The notes under the pieces are model-generated. The model made no database searches and was not told where the DNA came from. It was given only the letters and a program-made list of their open reading frames with translations. Of a DNA stretch of 64,000 nucleotides, positions 1 through 10,360 are shown piece after piece (position 1 is the first letter of the stretch; each line of letters begins with the position of its first letter). Both the position numbers and the translations under genes were made by a program. This DNA is from Hydrogenivirga caldilitoris (GTDB taxonomy: Bacteria; Aquificota; Aquificia; Aquificales; Aquificaceae), in NCBI RefSeq assembly GCF_003664005.1, contig NZ_RCCJ01000001.1, positions 1,364,001 to 1,428,000 of the forward strand. The letters are read 5' to 3'.

Positions 1-944
1 ACGGAACCATGTCAGCCATCGCCGGTGCCGTCAGAGGCGGAGCAAGAGCTTTTTCTGCAACCTCCGGACCGGGACTCCTGAGAGGTCTTGAAGCTATAGT
101 CTCATGGCCAGGACACAGGATACCTGTAGTTCTAGGTGTTATGACGAGGGTTGTTAATGCACCCTTGTCCATACAGCCCGACAACGTGGAAATAGCCTAC
201 CTCCTACACTCTGGACTCGTCGTTCTTCATGCGGAGAACCAGCAGGACGTATTTGACTTCACCCTGGCTGGCTTCCCCATATCGGAAAAGGTTGACGTAT
301 ATCTTCCAGTGGTAGTGGCAACCGAAGGTTTCTTCGTGACTCATGCTAAAGGGTACGTTGAGTTGCCCCCTGAGGACATGAAGCTTCCGCCGAGAGACCC
401 TTACAAGGCTCCTGTTCCTCCAACGGACTGCGAGATACCCCCTGCAAGGATTCAGAGGGATGCTCCCGTCCAGAAGTCAAACTTCATGAGCTATCTGATC
501 CATGCGGTATGGCAGCAGGAGGTCTGGTCAGCTAACAGAAGAGCTATGAAATGGATTTACCACTATCTCGGTGGACCGATAGAGGTTGTCAATCCGGATG
601 CTGAGGTGTTCATAGTCGCCTCCGGATGTGCGGCAGCACAGGGAAGGGAAGCTCAAAGATACGCTGAGCTTGAAGGTTTACCTGTGGGTTTAATAAAAGT
701 TAAAGCTCTCAGGCCTTTCCCTGAGAAGGAGATAAGGGAGGCGCTGAAAAACGCAAAAGCCGTTATAGTTCCCGAGCACAACATAGTTGGATGGCTCGCC
801 AAAGAGGTAAAGGCAGCCATACCTAACGGAGGCATAGTTGTGGACGGACCGAGGGTTTACGGCGGAATGACTCTCCCCGTTGAGCTGATCATGGATGAGG
901 TTTACAAAGCCCTCGGCATTAAGAAGGAAAAAACCTTAGCTTAA
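1..944 (+). CDS. forA: 2-oxoacid:ferredoxin oxidoreductase alpha subunit (5' truncated)
   Basis: This is the C-terminal part of the alpha subunit of a pyruvate- or 2-oxoglutarate:ferredoxin oxidoreductase, which carboxylates acyl-CoA with reduced ferredoxin in the reductive TCA cycle. The frame is open to base 1, and the first visible residues (MSAIAGAVRGGARAFSATSG) are an internal family motif rather than an N-terminus, so about 80-90 residues lie outside the window. The 3' end is intact, and forB follows after 22 bases. In Hydrogenobacter thermophilus the order forDABGE belongs to the 2-oxoglutarate enzyme, while porEDABG has the small subunit first. The A-B-G-E order here therefore favours 2-oxoglutarate (inference). 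Sequence alone does not exclude pyruvate as the substrate. Confidence 0.85.
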   Translation, partial: GTMSAIAGAVRGGARAFSATSGPGLLRGLEAIVSWPGHRIPVVLGVMTRVVNAPLSIQPDNVEIAYLLHSGLVVLHAENQQDVFDFTLAGFPISEKVDVYLPVVVATEGFFVTHAKGYVELPPEDMKLPPRDPYKAPVPPTDCEIPPARIQRDAPVQKSNFMSYLIHAVWQQEVWSANRRAMKWIYHYLGGPIEVVNPDAEVFIVASGCAAAQGREAQRYAELEGLPVGLIKVKALRPFPEKEIREALKNAKAVIVPEHNIVGWLAKEVKAAIPNGGIVVDGPRVYGGMTLPVELIMDEVYKALGIKKEKTLA

Positions 945-966
945 ATTAAATGATAGGAGGTGCATC

Positions 967-1848
967 ATGGGACTTGAGTACGTAAAGATATCACCAGGAT
1001 TTGAGAAATACATGCCCAGGGACTACGTTGACCTGGTCCAGTTCGGGCAGTTTGGGAAGCAGATAGACGTTATGCAGATGGGGCAGTTCAAAGAGCTCGT
1101 AGAAGAGCACCCCATGTGTGCAGGATGCTACATGGCTTACTTCATAAGGGTGTTTTACGCAGCCCTGCCAAACCCTGAAGACACAATAGTCTTGGGAACG
1201 GCTGGATGTGCAAGATTAGCCCTTTCACAGGCTGCAGTTCCTTTCATATATGGAAACTACGGAGATACGAACGCTGTCGCTTCTGGTCTGAAAAGGGCAC
1301 TCTCCATAAGGTTCCCCGATAAGGTAAAGGACGTTGTAGTGATGGCAGGTGACGGTGGTCTGATGGACATAGGCTTCGGTATGACCATGCACTCCTGGTT
1401 CAGAAGGGAGAAGTTCACCACCATTATGGTGGACAACGAAGTGTACGGAAACACCGGAGGACAAGAGAGCGGAATGTCCCCCAAGGGGATACAGCTCAAG
1501 ATGGCACCCACCGGGAAGAAGTTTGACAAGATAAACGCTGTTGAACTCGCTCAGGTTGCTGGGTGTGTTTACGTTGCAAAGATATCACCAACCAACCCCA
1601 AGAGGATAGCAAAGACGATAAAGAGAGCCATACTCGCTGCAAGGGAGTTTGGTCCTACCTTCATTCACGCCTACACTTCCTGTAACATTGAATACTCAAT
1701 ACCCACCAGAGAAGTTCTTGCAGATGCAAGGAACAGAGAAAAGCAGGACTTCAAGTTCTACGAATGGATGACCGACGAGGTTAAGGAGTACCTTGAAGAG
1801 ATAGAGAGGAAGGAGAAGGAAAAGGCAAAGGAGGAGGTAGGTCAATGA
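967..1848 (+). CDS. forB: 2-oxoacid:ferredoxin oxidoreductase beta subunit (TPP-binding)
   Basis: The beta subunit carries thiamine diphosphate and the proximal [4Fe-4S] cluster. The TPP/Mg motif is visible as GDGGLMDIG followed by VDNEVYGNTGGQ. Early cysteines (HPMCAGCYMAYF) fit the cluster ligands. At 293 residues it has the normal family length. A strong ribosome-binding site (AGGAGG at 956-961) precedes ATG 967. The C-terminus is a run of Glu/Lys typical of thermophiles. It overlaps the gamma gene by 4 bases, so the two are translationally coupled. Confidence 0.93.
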   Translation: MGLEYVKISPGFEKYMPRDYVDLVQFGQFGKQIDVMQMGQFKELVEEHPMCAGCYMAYFIRVFYAALPNPEDTIVLGTAGCARLALSQAAVPFIYGNYGDTNAVASGLKRALSIRFPDKVKDVVVMAGDGGLMDIGFGMTMHSWFRREKFTTIMVDNEVYGNTGGQESGMSPKGIQLKMAPTGKKFDKINAVELAQVAGCVYVAKISPTNPKRIAKTIKRAILAAREFGPTFIHAYTSCNIEYSIPTREVLADARNREKQDFKFYEWMTDEVKEYLEEIERKEKEKAKEEVGQ

Positions 1849-2534
1849 AAAGGTATAACATAAGGATAGCAGGTGTCGGTGGGCAGGGGGTCGTTACCTC
1901 CGCCCACATCCTTGGTAACGCTATGTCTGCGGCAGGTAAGTACGCATCGTTAGTTCCCTTCTTCGGTTCTGAAAAGAGGATGGCTCCCGTTGAGGCATAC
2001 GTGAGAGCTTCAGACCAGCCGATATATGAGGTCGGTGAGGTTGTTTATCCAAACGTAATAATGATTTACCACCCTCAGGTCATCACCCACGGTAAGTCTT
2101 ACACCATGCCCTTTTACACGGGGCTGAAGCCCAACGGTATGGTGATAATCAATACAGATGTAGATATAATTCCCGAGGAGGACAAGCAGGTTCTTGAAGA
2201 ACTGAATGCGAAGATATTCATGATACCTGCAACCCAGATAGCCAGAGATATAGCCGGAACAGAGCTGGCTACCAATATGGCTATGATTGGACTCTTCTTT
2301 GGAATAACCAAACTCGTCAGCTTAGAGCATATAGAGAAGGCTCTCGTGGAAAGGTTCCTTGGGGGAACCTTTGTGGCCTCAGGTGGAACAACAGCCCTTG
2401 ATAGCGCCATAGAGAAGAAGTTTAAGAAGAAGCAGGAGCTTCTATCAAAGAATATGGACGTTATAAAGTACACGATAAAGTTGGCAGAGGAAAACAAGTG
2501 GGTGGAGGAGGAAGAGGAGAAAGTAGCTACCTGA
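1845..2534 (+). CDS. forG: 2-oxoacid:ferredoxin oxidoreductase gamma subunit
   Basis: The gamma subunit of the multi-subunit 2-oxoacid oxidoreductase contributes to the CoA/substrate pocket. The protein opens with RIAGVGGQGVVTSAHILG, the Gly-rich start of the POR gamma domain, and keeps TELATNMAMIGLFFG further on. It has 229 residues, slightly longer than the usual 180-200 because of a charged C-terminal tail ending in Glu-rich sequence. It starts inside the end of forB and is followed 11 bases later by the small ferredoxin subunit gene. Confidence 0.92.
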   Translation: MKRYNIRIAGVGGQGVVTSAHILGNAMSAAGKYASLVPFFGSEKRMAPVEAYVRASDQPIYEVGEVVYPNVIMIYHPQVITHGKSYTMPFYTGLKPNGMVIINTDVDIIPEEDKQVLEELNAKIFMIPATQIARDIAGTELATNMAMIGLFFGITKLVSLEHIEKALVERFLGGTFVASGGTTALDSAIEKKFKKKQELLSKNMDVIKYTIKLAEENKWVEEEEEKVAT

Positions 2535-2545
2535 GGAGGTTATGA

Positions 2546-2770
2546 ATGTATTTTGTGGCTGAAGTAAATGAAAAGGAGTGCGCAAAGTACAACTGTAAAC
2601 AGTGCGTCCTGTTCTGCCCTGAGCCTAACTGCCTGAACTACAAGGAAAGCGACCATACCGCTTGGGTCTGGTCTGACAGGTGCAAAGGTTGTGAGATATG
2701 TGTCTACGTGTGCTCTGACCTGCTTAAAAGGCACTGTATTGAAATGGTTATGGTAAAAACAGGAGACTGA
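2546..2770 (+). CDS. forE: 2-oxoacid:ferredoxin oxidoreductase small ferredoxin-like subunit
   Basis: A 74-residue Cys-rich protein. Cysteines are grouped as C-x4-C-x2-C-x3-C (residues about 12-24) and later C-x2-C-x3-C-x3-C, a degenerate two-cluster ferredoxin pattern. It is taken as the fifth (epsilon) subunit known from Hydrogenobacter oxidoreductases and probably passes electrons between ferredoxin and the core enzyme. The start is ATG 2546 with GAGGAGGT at 2533-2540; the nearer ATG at 2542 reaches a stop after six codons. Last gene of the operon: a perfect hairpin follows the stop. Confidence 0.85.
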   Translation: MYFVAEVNEKECAKYNCKQCVLFCPEPNCLNYKESDHTAWVWSDRCKGCEICVYVCSDLLKRHCIEMVMVKTGD

Positions 2771-2773
2771 CCT

Positions 2774-2800
2774 AAACCCGCCGTACGGCGGGTTTCTTAT
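2774..2800 (+). terminator. Rho-independent terminator of the for operon
   Basis: A perfect stem AAACCCGCCG / CGGCGGGTTT at 2774-2795 with a TA loop, followed by a T-rich stretch. It begins 3 bases after the forE stop codon. Confidence 0.9.
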
Positions 2801-2803
2801 CCC

Positions 2804-2862
2804 TTTACAAAAACAGTGGTCGTAGTCTAACATATTAGCCAAAAGCTAACCGGAGGTATAGT
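2804..2862 (+). promoter_or_regulatory. Probable promoter and leader of the COG0523-dab operon
   Basis: A sigma-70-like -35 (TTTACA, 2804-2809) lies 18 bases from a weak -10 (TAACAT, 2828-2833). The leader holds a small inverted repeat TTAGC-CAAAA-GCTAA (2835-2849) and a GGAGGT ribosome-binding site just before ATG 2863. The inverted repeat could be an operator or simply a weak hairpin. This is the only clear promoter-sized gap before dabBA. Confidence 0.4.
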
Positions 2863-3171
2863 ATGGACAGAGAAGTGAAGGAAAAGTTTGAAAGGCTTGC
2901 TCAGGAGCTTAAAGACCTAATGGCAAATCCAGACATTGACATTGAGGTCTGCTTCAAGGACATTGAAATGGGTGATAGCTGTGACATTGACAAAAAAATA
3001 CCCTACGTGAAGGTCAAGTATATTACCGAAGAACACGACGTTCATGAGAAGGACATTGAAATAGCTGAGGATAACTGGAGTAAGAGCGTTGAAGAGCTTA
3101 AGGAGTACGTGACCTTCATGATAGAGCAGTTTATGGAGGAGATAGACAGCGTTGAATACGGCGGTGAGTGA
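2863..3171 (+). CDS. Small acidic protein of unknown function
   Basis: 102 residues, strongly acidic, mostly predicted helix, with two cysteines (VCFKDIEMGDSCDID, residues about 29-43). No membrane segment or signal peptide. I do not recognise a family. It begins with a good ribosome-binding site (CGGAGG) and its stop overlaps the start of the COG0523 GTPase gene by one base (TGATG), so the two are coupled. Being first in the transcript that probably includes dabB-dabA-PII, it may take part in metal handling or regulation of that system (inference from position only). Confidence 0.7.
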   Translation: MDREVKEKFERLAQELKDLMANPDIDIEVCFKDIEMGDSCDIDKKIPYVKVKYITEEHDVHEKDIEIAEDNWSKSVEELKEYVTFMIEQFMEEIDSVEYGGE

Positions 3172-4082
3172 TGACCCCCGCCTACGTTATAACCGGCTTT
3201 CTTGGGAGTGGGAAGACAACCCTTCTCCTAAACTCGGCAAAGGAGTATTTCAGAGATAAGAAGGTAGCGGTCATAGTGAACGAGTTCGGCGAGGTGGGGG
3301 TAGATGGAAAGGTTCTTCAGAACGCCTATTCCAAGGTTATGGAGCTTCCGGAGGGTTGTATCTGTTGCACCTTGCACGCAGAATTTGAAAAGGGGCTTGC
3401 ACAGATAAGAGCCGATTACAACCCAGAAGTCCTCTTTGTGGAAACCTCTGGAGCCTCAGAACCTTTTCCTGTAATGATGAGCCTTCAGAACTTAGGCTGT
3501 TCAATAGAAGCAGTTATCTGCGTGGTGGACTCTAAAAACTTCCATAAGTACAGAGAAAACCCCACAGCCCTGCACCAGATAGGAAGCTCCAACGTCATAG
3601 TTCTAAACAAAGCAGACCTGGTGGACGAGGAAGAGTTAAAAAACCTTGAAGGTGAAATAAGAGACCTGTGGGAAAGATACAAGCTAAAAAACCTCTTTAC
3701 AGGAGAGGAAATTTTCAAGAGGGTTGCTGTTTACAGAGCTGTTTACGGAAAGGTTCCTCCAGAGGTATTCAGCGGTTCTTATACTATGAAGGAACTCATT
3801 GATATTCCCTCTCATGCCCATGAGCTCAAACTCTCTCAGGAGGTCCTCCTGCTTGAGGAACCTGTGAATTATGAAGAGCTGGAGAAGTTTATAAACTCCC
3901 TCCCTGAAACCATAGTCAGGGCAAAGGGTATAGTGAGGCTTGAACATAGTCCAAACCCTGTTCTTGTGAACTATTCCTTCGGACTCTTTGAGATAGGTAC
4001 AGAGGTGCCAGACTTCAGGGGGCGCTCCTTTTTAATTCTAATAGGTGAACCTGGTCATAAAAAGGTAGAGTTGAATCTGTAA
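3171..4082 (+). CDS. COG0523 (CobW/P47K/ZNG1-type) GTPase metallochaperone
   Basis: A G3E-family GTPase that inserts metal, usually zinc or cobalt, into client proteins. Visible motifs: P-loop GFLGSGKTTLLL near residue 10, the metal-binding GCICC (CxCC), and NKADLV (the NKxD guanine-specificity motif). The C-terminal CobW_C-like part is present, total about 303 residues. ATG 3171 overlaps the preceding stop; a GTG one codon upstream is possible. The dabB start lies only 27 bases downstream. DabA is a zinc protein resembling a beta-carbonic anhydrase, so a role in loading zinc into DabA is plausible (inference). Confidence 0.85.
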   Translation: MTPAYVITGFLGSGKTTLLLNSAKEYFRDKKVAVIVNEFGEVGVDGKVLQNAYSKVMELPEGCICCTLHAEFEKGLAQIRADYNPEVLFVETSGASEPFPVMMSLQNLGCSIEAVICVVDSKNFHKYRENPTALHQIGSSNVIVLNKADLVDEEELKNLEGEIRDLWERYKLKNLFTGEEIFKRVAVYRAVYGKVPPEVFSGSYTMKELIDIPSHAHELKLSQEVLLLEEPVNYEELEKFINSLPETIVRAKGIVRLEHSPNPVLVNYSFGLFEIGTEVPDFRGRSFLILIGEPGHKKVELNL

Positions 4083-4109
4083 AATATTGCGAGACAAGAA
4101 GGCTGAATC

Positions 4110-6386
4110 ATGGAAAGGTTGGTTCTTGTAACGGTTCTGCTGCCTTTAGTATCTGCCCTTGTAGTTCTGCTCGTAAAAAGCGAGCGGCTCTTTCCTAAGA
4201 TAAGTACGAACCTTACACTGCTCAACTTTCTCTTGAGCCTTACACTTCTTATCTTTGGAAGGGGAGAGAGTCTTAAAGCAGGTTCTTTAGAACTGTACAC
4301 TGACAACCTCGGGCTTCTACTTTCAACTTACATACTCCTTGTTAGTCTTGTGGTTCACAAGTTCTCAGAGAAGTATATGGCTGATGAAGAGGGTTACAGA
4401 AGATTCTACTTCCTCTTAGACCTTATGACCGGCTCTCTCGTGCTTCTGGTTCTATCTGCCAACCTTCTGGTCTTTGCACTTTGCTGGCATCTTATGGGTT
4501 TTATACTTTACTACCTCCTGAGTCAGAACTTAAAACGCAAAGAAGCGGTCAGATATGCAAACCTTACCTTCTTTACCCACAGGCTTGCCGACGTACCACT
4601 TCTGTTTGCTCTCTTCCTACTTTACAGAGAGTTTGGAACCTTCAGCATGACTGAGATATTTGGAAAAGCTCTTGAAAACGGCTCGGAGGTGCTTCCCTTA
4701 GTCACCTTGCTCCTTACCTTGAGCGGAATGCTCAAGTCAGCCCAATTCCTGTTCCACCACTGGATAGTTTATACAATGGAAGGACCCACACCGGTCTCAG
4801 CACTGATGCATGCGGGCATAGTGAATGCAGGAGCCTTTCTTGTGAACAGGTTCGCACCCCTGTATACCCATGACAAGCTTGGTCTTCAGCTTGCATTCAT
4901 AGCAGGTTCAATAACCGCAATAGTGGGTTCAGTTCTCATGCTCCTCCAGAGCGATATAAAGAAATCCCTTGGCTACTCAACGGTAGGTCAGATGGGTTAC
5001 ATGGTTATGGAGCTGGGGGTGGGAGCTTTTGCCCTGGCAGTCTATCATATGATGGCTCACGGTATATTCAAGGCTACCCTTTTTCTATACTCAGGAAACG
5101 TCATACACACGGCAAGACATGACCCCAACATACCTGAGGATGAGGTATATACAGCCTTGAAAAGAAGGACAGAGATAACTCGGGCTATACCATGGGTAGT
5201 TTACGGAGTACTTACGATAGCGATACCTCTCTTTCTCGTTTTCTTCTCCCACTACATAATTGAGGAGAGGCTTTTAGAATACAAGACATCCCTTGTTCTT
5301 CTATTCTTCGGGTGGGTAACGGCAGCTCAGGTACTGATAAGCGTCTTTAAGCTCGGTAGGGAGAGACCTCTACTTACAGCTTTGATGGCTGTCCTGTCAT
5401 TGACTGTAGTCCTGATGGGTTACGTTATAGTAGGTCACAGCCTACAGAAGTTCCTCTATCCCCAGGAGAGGTTAGTGGAGAGGATATATGAGGTTGCCTT
5501 CGCCTCTTGGGAGATATTCCTCTTTGAGGTCATATTCATGGTTCTAGTAATAGGTGTTGGCTGGTTCTTCATATACAACGCAAGCAGAGAAAGATATCTA
5601 CCCCTGTATATAAACCTTTACACCCATTTTTCAAGGGAGCTCTACATCCATGATATCTATGACATACTGAAAGCGCTATTTCTAAGGTTTGCTTCCCTTA
5701 CATCAAGGTTCTCATTCTTACCGGCGGCAGGTGGCTCTGCCCTTTTCTTCCTTGGAACTCCCTCTGAGAGGGATATTATGTTACTGATATTAGCCCTGTT
5801 TATACCCCTCTTTCCTCTCAGCCTCCTAACTTCAAGAGTCCTTTACAGGTTTGGTTTGCCCATTTATTTACTATTCCCACTTGCGGGATACGCTCTTATG
5901 CAGTTTTACGAACCTCCACAGTTTGCAGAGCTCATAGCCACCTTCACTTTCCTGTTTCATTCTCTCAGAATGTTTACAGTTAGGAACTTCAAGGCGGTTG
6001 GAGCGGAGCTCTACTGCTCCCTAATGCCTGTCTTGTATATCTCTGAAAGCATTTACCTCCTCCTGGCAGCGCTTCTGCCATTGGCGGTTAGACTCCTTGG
6101 AGTGTTTCTTGAGAGGGAGTTCGGAACTGGAGAGATAACTTATCTGAAGGGTCTTGTAGCTAAGATGCCCCTTTTCTCCTTCCTCCTCTCTCTCTTTATA
6201 TTACTGTCTTATTCGGTTACCCTCCCTGTTATGACTTCTCTTGATGGGGTAACCCTACTCCTATTTATCGCAGGCTCCTTCTTCCTCAGCCTTGCCCTGC
6301 TTACAAATGCGGCTAAGGTTCTCTGGGGTGAACCCGATGGTAGGTTCGTGTATAGGGACCTCCTTGGAGGTGGTAGATGGACTTAG
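4110..6386 (+). CDS. dabB: DabB: NuoL/MrpA-like membrane subunit of the inorganic carbon pump (extended)
   Basis: A polytopic membrane protein of the complex-I NuoL/Mrp antiporter family. It keeps the proton-channel block HHWIVYTMEGPTPVSALMHAG followed by LQSDIKKSLGYSTVGQMGYM. The next gene encodes DabA, so this is the ion-translocating DabB partner of the DAB (DABs accumulate bicarbonate) system rather than a complex I subunit. At 758 residues it is much longer than typical DabB (about 500-550). The last 220 residues or so add several hydrophobic segments. No strong ribosome-binding site is seen before ATG 4110. The gene overlaps dabA by 10 bases. Confidence 0.88.
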   Translation: MERLVLVTVLLPLVSALVVLLVKSERLFPKISTNLTLLNFLLSLTLLIFGRGESLKAGSLELYTDNLGLLLSTYILLVSLVVHKFSEKYMADEEGYRRFYFLLDLMTGSLVLLVLSANLLVFALCWHLMGFILYYLLSQNLKRKEAVRYANLTFFTHRLADVPLLFALFLLYREFGTFSMTEIFGKALENGSEVLPLVTLLLTLSGMLKSAQFLFHHWIVYTMEGPTPVSALMHAGIVNAGAFLVNRFAPLYTHDKLGLQLAFIAGSITAIVGSVLMLLQSDIKKSLGYSTVGQMGYMVMELGVGAFALAVYHMMAHGIFKATLFLYSGNVIHTARHDPNIPEDEVYTALKRRTEITRAIPWVVYGVLTIAIPLFLVFFSHYIIEERLLEYKTSLVLLFFGWVTAAQVLISVFKLGRERPLLTALMAVLSLTVVLMGYVIVGHSLQKFLYPQERLVERIYEVAFASWEIFLFEVIFMVLVIGVGWFFIYNASRERYLPLYINLYTHFSRELYIHDIYDILKALFLRFASLTSRFSFLPAAGGSALFFLGTPSERDIMLLILALFIPLFPLSLLTSRVLYRFGLPIYLLFPLAGYALMQFYEPPQFAELIATFTFLFHSLRMFTVRNFKAVGAELYCSLMPVLYISESIYLLLAALLPLAVRLLGVFLEREFGTGEITYLKGLVAKMPLFSFLLSLFILLSYSVTLPVMTSLDGVTLLLFIAGSFFLSLALLTNAAKVLWGEPDGRFVYRDLLGGGRWT

Positions 6387-9300
6387 GAAGGAAGCTCTGG
6401 ATAAGGTCTCTCGTAAACGTTTCAGCCGAGCCCATACCCTACTTTTGGCCTATGAGAACTTTCGTTCACCATAACCCCTTGCATGAGCTTGAAGAGCTCT
6501 CTTTCTGGGAGGCGGTAAGAGAAGGGGAGAGGATATTCGGAGGAAGGGGTTTTCTGAGCAGGGAGGGGTATCAATACCTTATGGAGAGGGGGAGGATAAG
6601 GGAGGAGTACCTCAGAAACAGGGTGGTAGAGTTCCTTGAAGAGGAAAACCTCCATATATCCGGGCTGGATACAGCAGAGTTGGTGGTAAGGTTAATAACG
6701 GATAGAAGAAATTTAAATCCGAGGGTAAACAGAATCAGGAAGGATATACCGGAGGACTTGGTTGAGTTCGTCTTAGGGGAGTTCAGGGAAGACCCGGCAG
6801 AGGAGATGGAGACGTTGTTCACGTCCGTTGGAAAAGAACGTACCCTTTATGAAGCGATAGATGAGCTGACTGGTTCTGACCTATCCTCCGTAATAGATGA
6901 CCTTGTGGCGAGGAGCATGATAGGGTTCCTGGACGAGGGTCAGGCGGCTGTTGCTATGCCCAGGAGGGAACTTGGACTTTTCAGGGCATGGAAGGAGCTT
7001 GCAAAACACAACGTAAGGTTTCTCTTGAGAGCCGGCTTTGGGTTCTGGAAGCTGGTTCAGAAGTTTGAGGAACCTGAAGAGGCTATAGAATATGTACTCC
7101 AGGACCTCAACATACCCGAATACCTGTGGAGTGATTACATAACGAGGGAACTTTCCCGTCTTAAGGGGATAGTTGGGTTCTTGAGGTGGAGACAACACAA
7201 CAGGGACTACTTCTGGCAGAAAAAGTATCCCGCAGACGTTGTAGATTATGCTGCTGTAAGACTCATTATAGTCAGGGCGGTTCTGAGCTTCAGAGCGAGA
7301 AGCATACCCTTCGGAGCCGATTATAGGTGCCTGGAAAAGCTCCTCAGGGAGGATAGGAAGAGAGCTTACCTTATGAGAGAGTACTTTAGCGGAAGGGCGG
7401 TTCCCCGCTACGCCGAAAAACTCCCCGAATACTTTAAAAATCCAGAGAGTATAATTGAGGAATATTTGAGAGAGAAAGCCCTCTGGAATGCTAAGGTTTT
7501 CCTGTCTTTCCTGTACGAGTGGCTCTCCCTCTCAGGTATAGGGCTTGAGGACATAGGTCATTCCGAAGTTCTGGGGCTCGTGAAACTCCACAGAAGGCTT
7601 CAAGAGAAGGAAGGTGTTATATGGCTCAAGGCTATGGAGGATACACTCCTTGAGTCCCTGGTATCCGGTATGAAACCTGTACGTAGAGAAGAGGATAAAG
7701 TTGCCCAAGCTCTATTCTGTATAGACGTTAGGTCGGAGAGGTTCAGGAGAAACCTTGAAGCCCTGGGAGGGTATGAAACACACGGTATAGCCGGCTTTTT
7801 CGGAGTTCCCATGGCTTTCGTTGAGTTAGAGAAGGGGCACGAGGAGTTTCTTTGCCCTGTAATCCTGAGACCGGGGAACGTTGTCCTTGAGCTTCCCGTC
7901 AGGAGGGAGAGCTCCACCTCACCAAAGGGAGCTGTAGAGGAGATATTCCATGACCTGAAGGAGAACGTCCTTACTCCATTCGTTACAGTTGAAGCCATAG
8001 GTTTTCTCTTCGGTTTTGACTTTATAGGTAAGACTTTCCTGCCCACAGTCTATTCACGGGCGAGGGAGAAGGTTCTGGAGCGGAAACCTCCCACCCGTTT
8101 GCTTCTGGAGAAGCTTGGTGATGAGGAGATAGAGCATGTTGTGAAGTCTGTTCTTGGAGCTATCGTTAGAGTAGCCCTTGACAGGGAGTTAGGAATAAAA
8201 GCTGACGTGAGGACAACCGAAGAGGTTTTGGAAACCATCCTTGAGGGTAAGGAGCTCTGTGAAAGCCTTCCTGTGAGTGAAGAGAGGCAGAGGGAGTTCT
8301 TCAAGAAGCTCAGAACAGATTACAGGGTGGACAGAGGGTCTGCAAGCCTCATAAGGGAGAAACTCAAGCACGTAGGTTTCTCTCTGGAGGAGCAGGCTGC
8401 TCTGATAGCTGTTGCTCTGAAGTCAATAGGTCTGGTTAAAGACTTTGCTCCTATAGTCCTGGTTCTGGGACACGGCAGCAGGTCTGAAAACAACCCTTAC
8501 GAATCCGCCCTGGACTGCGGAGCCTGCGGTGGGGCTTCGGGAACCCATAACGCCCGGGCTTTCTGTGTAATGGCGAACAATCCAAAGGTAAGAACCATAC
8601 TCAGGGAGAGGTTTGGCATAGATATACCAGAGAGCACCTACTTCGTTCCAGGGTTGCACAACACCACAACGGATGAGATTAAACTCTATGACCTTGAACT
8701 TCTACCTCCCAAGCTTTTACCCCTCTTGGAGAGGATAGAGGAGGACCTCAGGAGAGCCGGGGAGACCACAGCCCTGGAGAGAGCCAAGGAACTCGGTGTG
8801 GGGCAGGTCTATAGAAAGGTGGTGGAGAACGCCTATGACTGGTCCCAGGTCCGCCCCGAGTGGGGACTCTCGGGCAACTACGCCTTTATAATCGGAAGGA
8901 GGGAGCTTACCGCCGGTATGAATCTGGGTGGAAAGGTGTTCCTCCACTCCTACGATTACAAGGTGGACCCAAAAGGTTTCCTCCTGGAGAACATACTTTC
9001 GGGACCTCTGGTGGTAGGACAGTGGATAAACATGGAGCACTACTTTTCCACGACGGACAACGAAGTCTACGGGAGCGGTAGTAAAGTCTATCATAACGTT
9101 GCAGGAAGGATAGGAGTGATGACCGGAAATCTGAGCGACCTCAGGACGGGACTCCCGGCTCAGACAGTCTTGAAAAAGGGAAAACCCTTCCACACCCCCG
9201 TGAGGTTGATAGCTCTGATTGAAGCACCCTTGGAGTTTGTGAAGAAGGTGGTGGGCAGAGTCCACAAGATAAGGGAACTGGTCCATAAAGAATGGATAAA

Positions 9301-9397
9301 CATGGTAGTTCTTGACCCGGAGAGGAATACCTTTTACAGGTTTATGGATGGAGATTGGGTTGAGATAAAGAGCATATCCGAGGAGGTAAAAACATGA
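6377..9397 (+). CDS. dabA: DabA: beta-carbonic-anhydrase-like subunit of the inorganic carbon pump (DUF2309/UPF0753)
   Basis: The cytoplasmic partner of DabB, thought to hydrate CO2 in one direction, driven by the cation gradient, to trap bicarbonate. The N-terminal YFWPMRTFVHHNPLHELE is the DUF2309 signature. The zinc/active-site set characterised in Halothiobacillus DabA (Cys, Asp, His, Cys) is present: C448 and D450 in FCIDVRSERF, H699 in LGHGSRSENNP and C714 in DCGACGG. The 15-residue His-to-Cys distance matches the characterised protein. At 1006 residues it is longer than the roughly 830 of proteobacterial DabA. It overlaps dabB by 10 bases and the PII-like gene by 4 bases, so the three are coupled. 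Confidence 0.93.
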   Translation: MDLGRKLWIRSLVNVSAEPIPYFWPMRTFVHHNPLHELEELSFWEAVREGERIFGGRGFLSREGYQYLMERGRIREEYLRNRVVEFLEEENLHISGLDTAELVVRLITDRRNLNPRVNRIRKDIPEDLVEFVLGEFREDPAEEMETLFTSVGKERTLYEAIDELTGSDLSSVIDDLVARSMIGFLDEGQAAVAMPRRELGLFRAWKELAKHNVRFLLRAGFGFWKLVQKFEEPEEAIEYVLQDLNIPEYLWSDYITRELSRLKGIVGFLRWRQHNRDYFWQKKYPADVVDYAAVRLIIVRAVLSFRARSIPFGADYRCLEKLLREDRKRAYLMREYFSGRAVPRYAEKLPEYFKNPESIIEEYLREKALWNAKVFLSFLYEWLSLSGIGLEDIGHSEVLGLVKLHRRLQEKEGVIWLKAMEDTLLESLVSGMKPVRREEDKVAQALFCIDVRSERFRRNLEALGGYETHGIAGFFGVPMAFVELEKGHEEFLCPVILRPGNVVLELPVRRESSTSPKGAVEEIFHDLKENVLTPFVTVEAIGFLFGFDFIGKTFLPTVYSRAREKVLERKPPTRLLLEKLGDEEIEHVVKSVLGAIVRVALDRELGIKADVRTTEEVLETILEGKELCESLPVSEERQREFFKKLRTDYRVDRGSASLIREKLKHVGFSLEEQAALIAVALKSIGLVKDFAPIVLVLGHGSRSENNPYESALDCGACGGASGTHNARAFCVMANNPKVRTILRERFGIDIPESTYFVPGLHNTTTDEIKLYDLELLPPKLLPLLERIEEDLRRAGETTALERAKELGVGQVYRKVVENAYDWSQVRPEWGLSGNYAFIIGRRELTAGMNLGGKVFLHSYDYKVDPKGFLLENILSGPLVVGQWINMEHYFSTTDNEVYGSGSKVYHNVAGRIGVMTGNLSDLRTGLPAQTVLKKGKPFHTPVRLIALIEAPLEFVKKVVGRVHKIRELVHKEWINMVVLDPERNTFYRFMDGDWVEIKSISEEVKT

Positions 9398-9720
9398 AAG
9401 ACCTGAAGCTCTATTCTATGAAGAAGGTTGAGATAATAGTCCGGGGAGAGGATATAGATTTTGTTATTGACATCCTGGAAAGAGCTGGAATAAGCGGTTA
9501 CACCATATTTCACAACCTTTCAGGTAAAGGCAGCCATGGTTTTCATGAAGGACACCTCCTCTTTAACGAAGAGGATACACTGGTTATGGTGGTTTCGGTC
9601 ATGCCCGAGGAGAAAGCCCTCTCTATTCTGGAAGGGCTAACGCCCTTTCTTAACAAGCACTCTGGGGTAGTATTTATTTCCGACACAATGGTGAGCAGGC
9701 TTGAAAAGTTCAAGAGATAG
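9394..9720 (+). CDS. PII-like signalling protein linked to DabAB
   Basis: 108 residues with a GlnB-like ferredoxin fold: VEIIVRGEDIDFVIDILERAGISGYTIF then a T-loop-like stretch GKGSHGFHEGHLLFNEED and a final strand pair ending FISDTMVSRLEKF. It lacks the uridylylation Tyr motif of classical GlnB. Its start overlaps the dabA stop (ATGA), so it probably senses nucleotide or carbon status and gates DabAB, as SbtB- or CPII-type proteins do for other bicarbonate transporters. Function is inferred from fold and position; an alternative start is Met-9. Confidence 0.82.
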   Translation: MKDLKLYSMKKVEIIVRGEDIDFVIDILERAGISGYTIFHNLSGKGSHGFHEGHLLFNEEDTLVMVVSVMPEEKALSILEGLTPFLNKHSGVVFISDTMVSRLEKFKR

Positions 9721-10360
9721 TTTACTTCAGGTCTTTAAACTCCTTCTGGTCTCTTATGGAAAACAGAATTGGTGGCCTGTAGACAGAGAGTATCACAGGA
9801 AGGAAGGAAGTGACCCCAGAGAGGAGATAGTTATCGGTGCCATACTAACCCAGAACACCTCCTGGAGGAACGTTGAAAAAGCCCTTCAGAACTTGAAAAG
9901 GGTAAAGGCTCTCTCCTTCAAAAGGATTATAGATATCACTCCTGAAGCTCTCCAGGAGCTCATAAGACCAGCGGGTTACTACAGACAGAAAGCCGTATAT
10001 TTAAAAGAGGTGGCTTTTAGGCTTTACCCGGTGTCAAAGGTTGAAAAAGTAAGCAGGGAGGAACTCCTTGAGATAAAGGGTATAGGAAGGGAAACCGCAG
10101 ACACGATTCTCTTGTATGCAGGAAATAGACCTTACTTCGTTATAGACGCCTACACTAAGAGGATAGTTAAAAGGGTATTCGGGATAGAGGACAATTACGA
10201 GGGGCTTAGGAAATTCTTTGAGGAAAATTTGCCTGAGGACATAGAACTTTACAAGGAGTTCCATGCTCTTTTAGATGAGCACGCCAAGAGGTTCTGCAAA
10301 AAGATTCCCCAATGCGAAGGCTGCATTCTCACTCAGCTCTGTACTCAGCCTTTGAGGTAG
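9701..10360 (+). CDS. HhH-GPD DNA glycosylase, MagIII-like (COG2231)
   Basis: A base-excision DNA glycosylase of the endonuclease III superfamily. It has the N-terminal QNWWP and GAILTQNTSWRNVEKAL stretches of 3-methyladenine glycosylase III. The helix-hairpin-helix LEIKGIGRETADTILLYA has Glu where endonuclease III has its catalytic Lys, and the catalytic Asp is kept (VIDAYTKR). This points to a monofunctional glycosylase. A C-terminal C-x5-C-x2-C-x5-C should bind [4Fe-4S]. The start seems to be TTG 9701 inside the PII gene, since an in-frame stop lies just upstream. The 3' end overlaps convergent queD by 32 bases. Confidence 0.8.
   Translation: MKSSRDSLLQVFKLLLVSYGKQNWWPVDREYHRKEGSDPREEIVIGAILTQNTSWRNVEKALQNLKRVKALSFKRIIDITPEALQELIRPAGYYRQKAVYLKEVAFRLYPVSKVEKVSREELLEIKGIGRETADTILLYAGNRPYFVIDAYTKRIVKRVFGIEDNYEGLRKFFEENLPEDIELYKEFHALLDEHAKRFCKKIPQCEGCILTQLCTQPLR

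Follow-up and report, generated by a model that had tools for sequence, protein, structure and literature searches.

A DabBA carbon pump and its PII protein next to the operon of a reductive tricarboxylic acid cycle carboxylase in Hydrogenivirga caldilitoris

Nearly all that is understood about CO2-concentrating systems concerns RuBisCO. The closest described pumps are DAB1, made of the three subunits DabA1, DabB1 and Hneap_0908, and DAB2 (DabA2–DabB2), in which the roles of the catalytic residues of DabA2 come from cryo-EM, DabA2 binds one zinc, and a one-way CO2 hydration driven by proton-motive force has been proposed (PMC13144422). For the Aquificota, Dab and SbtA, and inorganic-carbon transporter genes beside genes of the reductive tricarboxylic acid (TCA) cycle, have already been reported (PMC10880623), and DabAB is abundant in the membranes of Aquifex aeolicus (PMC10052474). 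Here, we analyzed a 64,000-nt stretch of DNA from Hydrogenivirga caldilitoris (contig NZ_RCCJ01000001.1, positions 1,364,001 to 1,428,000; hereafter "the window"), in which a DabBA pump and its PII protein adjoin the operon of a reductive-TCA carboxylase, the five-subunit ferredoxin oxidoreductase For. With moderate confidence, we read the locus as a carbon-supply cassette in the order forDABGE, ACID (a small acidic protein), COG0523 (a GTPase), an exchangeable inorganic-carbon pump and PII, the parts played by ACID and COG0523 being presumed.

A preliminary description of this DNA had drawn attention to DabAB in an apparent reductive-TCA organism, which is real but not new, being in print for Aquificota (PMC10052474, PMC10880623). 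The co-location report likewise places transporter genes with reductive-TCA genes, and its accessible parts do not mention ACID, COG0523 or the exchange of pumps in one slot (PMC10880623). Our literature search, which took in few subscription papers, found nothing about ACID, and for this locus nothing about COG0523 or pump exchange. We regard three points as new: ACID belongs to the For cluster, the pump slot is exchangeable, and the idea that COG0523 loads zinc into DabA is weakened. The pump and PII are of known kinds.

The pump and its PII protein

At positions 2863 to 9720, the open reading frame (ORF) list gives five packed genes on the plus strand, with spacings, in order, of -4 nt (COG0523 overlaps ACID), +27 nt (dabB starts after COG0523), -10 nt (dabB and dabA overlap) and -4 nt:

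2863 to 3171, plus strand: ACID, small acidic protein of 102 amino acids (aa), For-cluster gene (position behind For; alignment; model)
3168 to 4082, plus strand: COG0523 (CobW-like) G3E GTPase with a GCICC motif (PF02492, PF07683; motif; tree)
4110 to 6386, plus strand: DabB, 758 aa (PF00361 and PF00662, Proton_antipo_M and _N)
6377 to 9397, plus strand: DabA, subunit resembling beta-carbonic anhydrase, intact zinc site (PF10070; alignment to DabA2 of PDB 9rd0; residue positions)
9394 to 9720, plus strand: PII-like protein of the CPII kind (PF00543; nearest PDB entries 5D4N and 5D4L, E 3e-36)

Positions, spacings and Pfam matches agree with the tight five-gene cluster of the preliminary description, and its placement just after a ferredoxin oxidoreductase operon also holds, with subunits A, B, G and E directly upstream and the whole operon present in the genome.

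DabA matched PF10070 over the whole model (E 9e-250). Its residues C448, D450, R452, H699 and C714 align with Cys351, Asp353, Arg355, His524 and Cys539 of DabA2, and H761 and D766 with His585 and Asp590, so that the zinc ligands (C448, H699, C714) and the D450–R452 dyad are intact; the four residues named earlier (C448, D450, H699, C714) are confirmed by position and by this alignment. The pump thus shares with DAB2 the zinc ligands, the Asp-Arg dyad and other residues of the active site (PMC13144422), and differs from it in the length of DabA (1006 aa, against 870 in the PDB chain) and of DabB (758 against 551), and in its operon. DabB is of the NuoL/Mrp family, with a PDB match to DabB2 (E 4e-45), and from about residue 556 it matches an ORF that stands by itself in the middle of seven proteobacterial loci (E 2e-7 to 1e-4); the small membrane subunit is also a separate gene in some other Aquificota. 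Since the C-terminal part matches a separate small-subunit ORF, in keeping with the three-subunit DAB1, DabB is, judged from sequence, a fusion of two membrane subunits of a DAB1-type pump. The sequence thus shows the pump to be a DabBA of the DAB1 type that has its zinc site intact and a PII of its own. It shares DabA, DabB, the small membrane subunit and, in most relatives, a PII gene behind DabA with DAB1/DAC of Halothiobacillus neapolitanus, but here DabB and the small subunit are fused and the neighbor is a reductive-TCA oxidoreductase rather than carboxysome genes.

The PII protein matches its closest solved relatives over its whole length. PDB entries 5D4L to 5D4P are CPII, the carboxysome-associated PII-like protein, which binds bicarbonate and adenylates; the context here, unlike that of CPII, has no carboxysome. 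A PII gene lay behind DabA in 76 of 80 Dab loci, the best 80 of 276 from a genome-contig scan for DabA relatives; one locus (L027; G, L, C and g labels are ours for genomes, loci, contigs and genome groups) was scored as lacking an adjacent PII, which begins 0.8 kb further on. In a PDB search, the PII proteins of SbtA loci were closer to CPII than to SbtB.

An exchangeable pump slot behind For and ACID

A carbon pump comes after For in 45 genomes, so the arrangement is not due to chance; these linked genomes come from loci fetched for ACID, DabA or COG0523, and only the count of ACID behind For given below starts from forG. In Aquificaceae, the slot holds DabB–DabA, usually with PII, in 22 genomes and SbtA–PII in 15, and COG0523 follows ACID both where DabB comes next and where, as in those 15 genomes, SbtA does. 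In a second family, a Dab operon fills the slot in eight genomes, the pump lying mostly between For and a second oxidoreductase operon. The slot transporter is SbtA by PF05982 (E 1e-118 or better in the four checked); as in SbtA–SbtB, it has its own PII-like gene, and it is unrelated to Dab. SbtA was not found in the window's own genome. Of 64 Aquificaceae genomes, 40 have DabA and 16 have SbtA, and only G050 and G025 have both (Fisher p 3e-6 for the exclusion, kinship ignored). In G025, a DabA remnant with an internal stop lies right behind COG0523 (G025:C28:6085-6348) and an intact SbtA elsewhere (G025:C12:3067-4005), possibly a pump exchange caught in progress. The locus is in effect a natural experiment in a reductive-TCA lineage of thermophilic hydrogen bacteria, with the same carboxylase operon and two helpers kept and two unrelated pumps exchanged behind them. 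The two pumps are also found interleaved: in G097 (L291), an SbtA–PII pair sits inside the dab operon, between the small membrane subunit and DabA.

ACID is tied to For. A forG of the For type was present in 63 of the 136 Aquificota genomes searched, counting matches of at least 79% identity and leaving aside the fragments G020:C133, G003:C298 and G012:C4 and all weaker matches. When the search was started from forG, ACID lay 243 to 377 nt downstream on the same strand in 62 of these 63 genomes, G013 being the only one without it. Conversely, none of 71 Por-type homologues had ACID within 3 kb downstream, and of the 40 rows by which the ACID list was extended, 10 shared a contig with PorG, none of them lying closer to it than 3 kb. 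One ACID gene, in G026, was masked in the locus listing by a long COG0523 ORF and was shown by a separate search. The g2 and g4 genomes, which have COG0523 and the Dab genes at other sites, also keep ACID behind For. By its position, then, ACID is a member of the For cluster and a candidate part of an oxygen-sensitive carboxylase.

The protein itself has a pI of 4.3, is about 100 aa long across the family, and ends in a strongly conserved EYGGE. Its predicted model is alpha-beta-beta-beta-alpha and fairly confident (mean pLDDT 84, pTM 0.70). No Pfam, NCBIfam or PDB family matched convincingly, nor did a Pfam run over 36 members find one; the best hit of an ACID profile against PDB sequences had E 0.46, and Foldseek returned nothing for the model at E 0.001 or below. 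With VIA-align 2, the best match was to ubiquitin-conjugating enzymes and actin-capping proteins (Z 6.0, rmsd 4.2, 81 residues aligned), which according to the tool may be only a common arrangement, and we do not assign ACID to a family on that basis. The preliminary description had left its acidic first gene without a role; by position the gene is tied to For. Many genomes have one to three ACID paralogues, some of which have EGE or YGGG at the end. Paralogues also stand next to genes of other kinds, which, judged by eye, resemble those for ATP-synthase delta and b (L251:7366-7662, L253, L297) or rpsO and pnp (L252). At locus L282 of G064, a forE-like gene and ACID stand side by side without the other For subunits, downstream of a two-subunit oxidoreductase pair (601 and 303 aa).

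The window opens inside subunit A, and the complete forDABGE operon is present in the genome (L294), in the D-A-B-G-E order of five-subunit For:

9 to 2534, plus strand: forA (starting before the window), forB and forG, core subunits of five-subunit For (Pfam POR_N, PFOR_II, TPP_enzyme_C, POR; genome gene order; forG comparison)
2546 to 2770, plus strand: forE, ferredoxin-like subunit, 74 aa (4Fe-4S dicluster matches; sequence reading)

The forG product is 90% identical to that of G001, whose For cluster adjoins a 125-aa and a 1159-aa ORF. In A. aeolicus, the cluster for 2-oxoglutarate:ferredoxin oxidoreductase (OGOR) is adjoined by Aq_1163 and reverse gyrase 2, and Aq_1163 co-purified with OGOR in a pull-down (PMC10052474). 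Because the ORFs beside the G001 cluster fit these neighbors, the window's operon, through its forG identity to G001, most likely encodes an OGOR. ACID is not Aq_1163: that protein is likely another ORF, the one of 125 aa, which lies across the For operon from ACID. Homologues of this likely Aq_1163 lie directly 5' of forD in G023 and most g2 genomes (L211, L231, L244, L249, L256, L258, L260) and, in five g1 genomes, directly behind COG0523 genes located away from For (L232:8851-9282, L233, L234, L236, L263, L264).

What ACID and COG0523 may serve

Like the COG0523 metal GTPases CobW, YjiA, ZigA and YciC, the window's protein has both CobW domains (cobW and CobW_C) and the CxCC motif, already seen in the preliminary description and here GCICC. 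It reaches no NCBIfam equivalog cut-off, however, and its ZigA score (96 of 600 bits) does not place it in the zinc-specific subgroup (ZigA; YciC/Zur regulon), Zur sites not having been searched. In a green alga, a COG0523-type protein has a link of another kind to carbon concentration (PMC12891040). In a tree of 57 Aquificota rows, drawn from ORFs of 250 to 340 aa (fragments, longer paralogues and the COG0523 of G032 being set aside), 38 rows were in a For locus, of which 19 had Dab next, 16 (from 15 genomes) SbtA and 3 neither; the remaining 19 were elsewhere. The For-linked Aquificaceae proteins formed one group (support 100/97) that mixes Dab and SbtA cases and has one long-branch unlinked row inside, and most unlinked rows formed another. 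Among the neighbors listed for the COG0523 genes located elsewhere, no zinc-transport or Zur genes were recognized by eye.

The preliminary description suggested that COG0523 may be a metallochaperone putting zinc into DabA; on this reading, the acidic protein would be a pump part of no known role. Its place between ACID, which it overlaps, and dabB, 27 nt on, speaks for this, as do the 19 of 57 rows with Dab genes next, the single zinc of DabA2 (PMC13144422) and the clustering of other COG0523 genes with paralogues of gamma-carbonic anhydrase in Zur regulons (PMC2770081). Yet SbtA is next in 16 of the 57 rows, ACID remains with For where Dab is elsewhere, and COG0523 occurred in none of the 80 Dab loci of the genome-contig scan, 70 of which had at least 2.5 kb upstream. 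The neighborhood comparison that the preliminary description proposed as a check thus unlinks COG0523 from dabA in 80 of 80 loci and, within Aquificota, links it as much to SbtA as to Dab. Moreover, 8 of the 40 DabA-bearing Aquificaceae had no COG0523 match (G013, G016, G020, G056, G058–G061); G058, G060 and G061 are 99% complete and also have For. Since genomes with both but without a COG0523 match exist, COG0523 is indispensable for neither DabA nor For. Zinc loading is therefore not supported as a conserved job of COG0523, a dedicated loader of DabA we consider unlikely, and the locus argues against a GTPase that mainly serves the pump.

The steadier partner of COG0523 is the For/ACID end. 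Because relatives keep ACID and COG0523 while swapping the pump, the arrangement suggests that these helpers serve the enzyme. They might go as far as forming a maturation pair for For, in which COG0523 delivers or checks a metal, either for For itself or for an Fe-S or thiamine-pyrophosphate step, ACID is an adaptor and the pump is a mere tenant of the operon. This would fit ACID behind For in nearly every For-bearing genome, the For-linked COG0523 group that spans Dab and SbtA cases with its one unlinked member, and the Aq_1163 homologue adjoining unlinked COG0523 in five g1 genomes, Aq_1163 having been pulled down with OGOR (PMC10052474). The g10 genomes, which have For and ACID but no COG0523 match, tell against it. 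Moreover, no COG0523 protein is known to serve such an oxidoreductase, and we hold the maturation pair to be possible but doubtful. It is also conceivable, if unlikely, that carbon-fixation genes simply share a highly expressed region and that ACID and COG0523 have unrelated household jobs, as the 19 COG0523 rows elsewhere, with apparently unrelated neighbors, and the ACID paralogues beside other gene kinds might imply; against this, the order is kept in two families, the gaps are small, and two unrelated pumps are exchanged at the same place.

Several observations also weigh against the cassette itself. Neighboring genes need not act together; g10 makes COG0523 dispensable for For; a third of the COG0523 rows (19 of 57) lie away from the For locus; in g2 and g4 neither pump nor COG0523 adjoins For; and, in the window's genus, the genes behind For are set apart from it by a hairpin and a promoter-like site.

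On the carbon-supply cassette reading, which we still favor, DabBA would, by analogy with DAB2, draw on proton-motive force for a one-way hydration of CO2 and load the cytoplasm with bicarbonate. This would go directly to biotin-dependent carboxylases and, converted to CO2 by a gamma-type carbonic anhydrase or by spontaneous dehydration, to the ferredoxin-dependent carboxylases For and Por, and PII would slow the pump according to the adenylate or bicarbonate level. ACID would act as a For accessory (in assembly, stability or regulation) and COG0523 as a metal helper driven by GTP, working with the For/ACID end and not dedicated to loading DabA with zinc. Beyond the presence of the genes, these steps are inferred. 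More speculatively, and improbably in our estimate, ACID could be an unrecognized sixth component of For, with its EYGGE tail as the docking site for COG0523 and the trio coupling carboxylase capacity to whichever pump sits behind; if true, ACID, COG0523 and For would be part of a compartment-free way of concentrating CO2 for the reductive TCA cycle.

Carbonic anhydrases, transcription signals and neighbors

Biotin-dependent carboxylases use bicarbonate, and the genome encodes three biotin-carboxylase domains. It also encodes a protein of the gamma-carbonic anhydrase type, which scores 202 bits against an NCBIfam cut-off of 250, and we rejected DabA as the organism's only carbonic anhydrase because of it. 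Beta-carbonic anhydrase (PF00484) had no match in any of the 64 Aquificaceae genomes, the control matching in 9 of 14 genomes, and alpha-carbonic anhydrase had none in the window's genome. In the window's genus, G008, G015 and G017 are the only genomes without DabA (they also lack SbtA) and the only ones with an alpha-carbonic anhydrase.

The gaps from forE to the pump are nearly all short or overlapping in g3, g5, g6, g8, g9 and g10, so that one transcript is likely there. The window has the following features between For and ACID and behind PII:

2774 to 2795, plus strand: hairpin between forE and ACID, possible terminator or attenuator (RNA fold -15.6 kcal/mol, z -4.2)
2804 to 2833, plus strand: promoter-like site TTTACA-18-TAACAT (consensus scan)
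9701 to 10360, plus strand: HhH-GPD DNA glycosylase (PF00730; 20-nt overlap with the PII gene)

The hairpin stands out by RNA fold only, being missing from the terminator-scan list, and similar hairpins occur in G009, G020 and G022; the promoter-like site is conserved in G020 and almost conserved in G022. Promoter and terminator scans found sites in the region no more numerous than in shuffles. Since both features lie between For and the genes behind it, separate regulation is possible in the window's genus, and the cassette may have its own start here. The overlap of the glycosylase and PII genes recurs in several g1 relatives and in G062, and the glycosylase may share the transcript.

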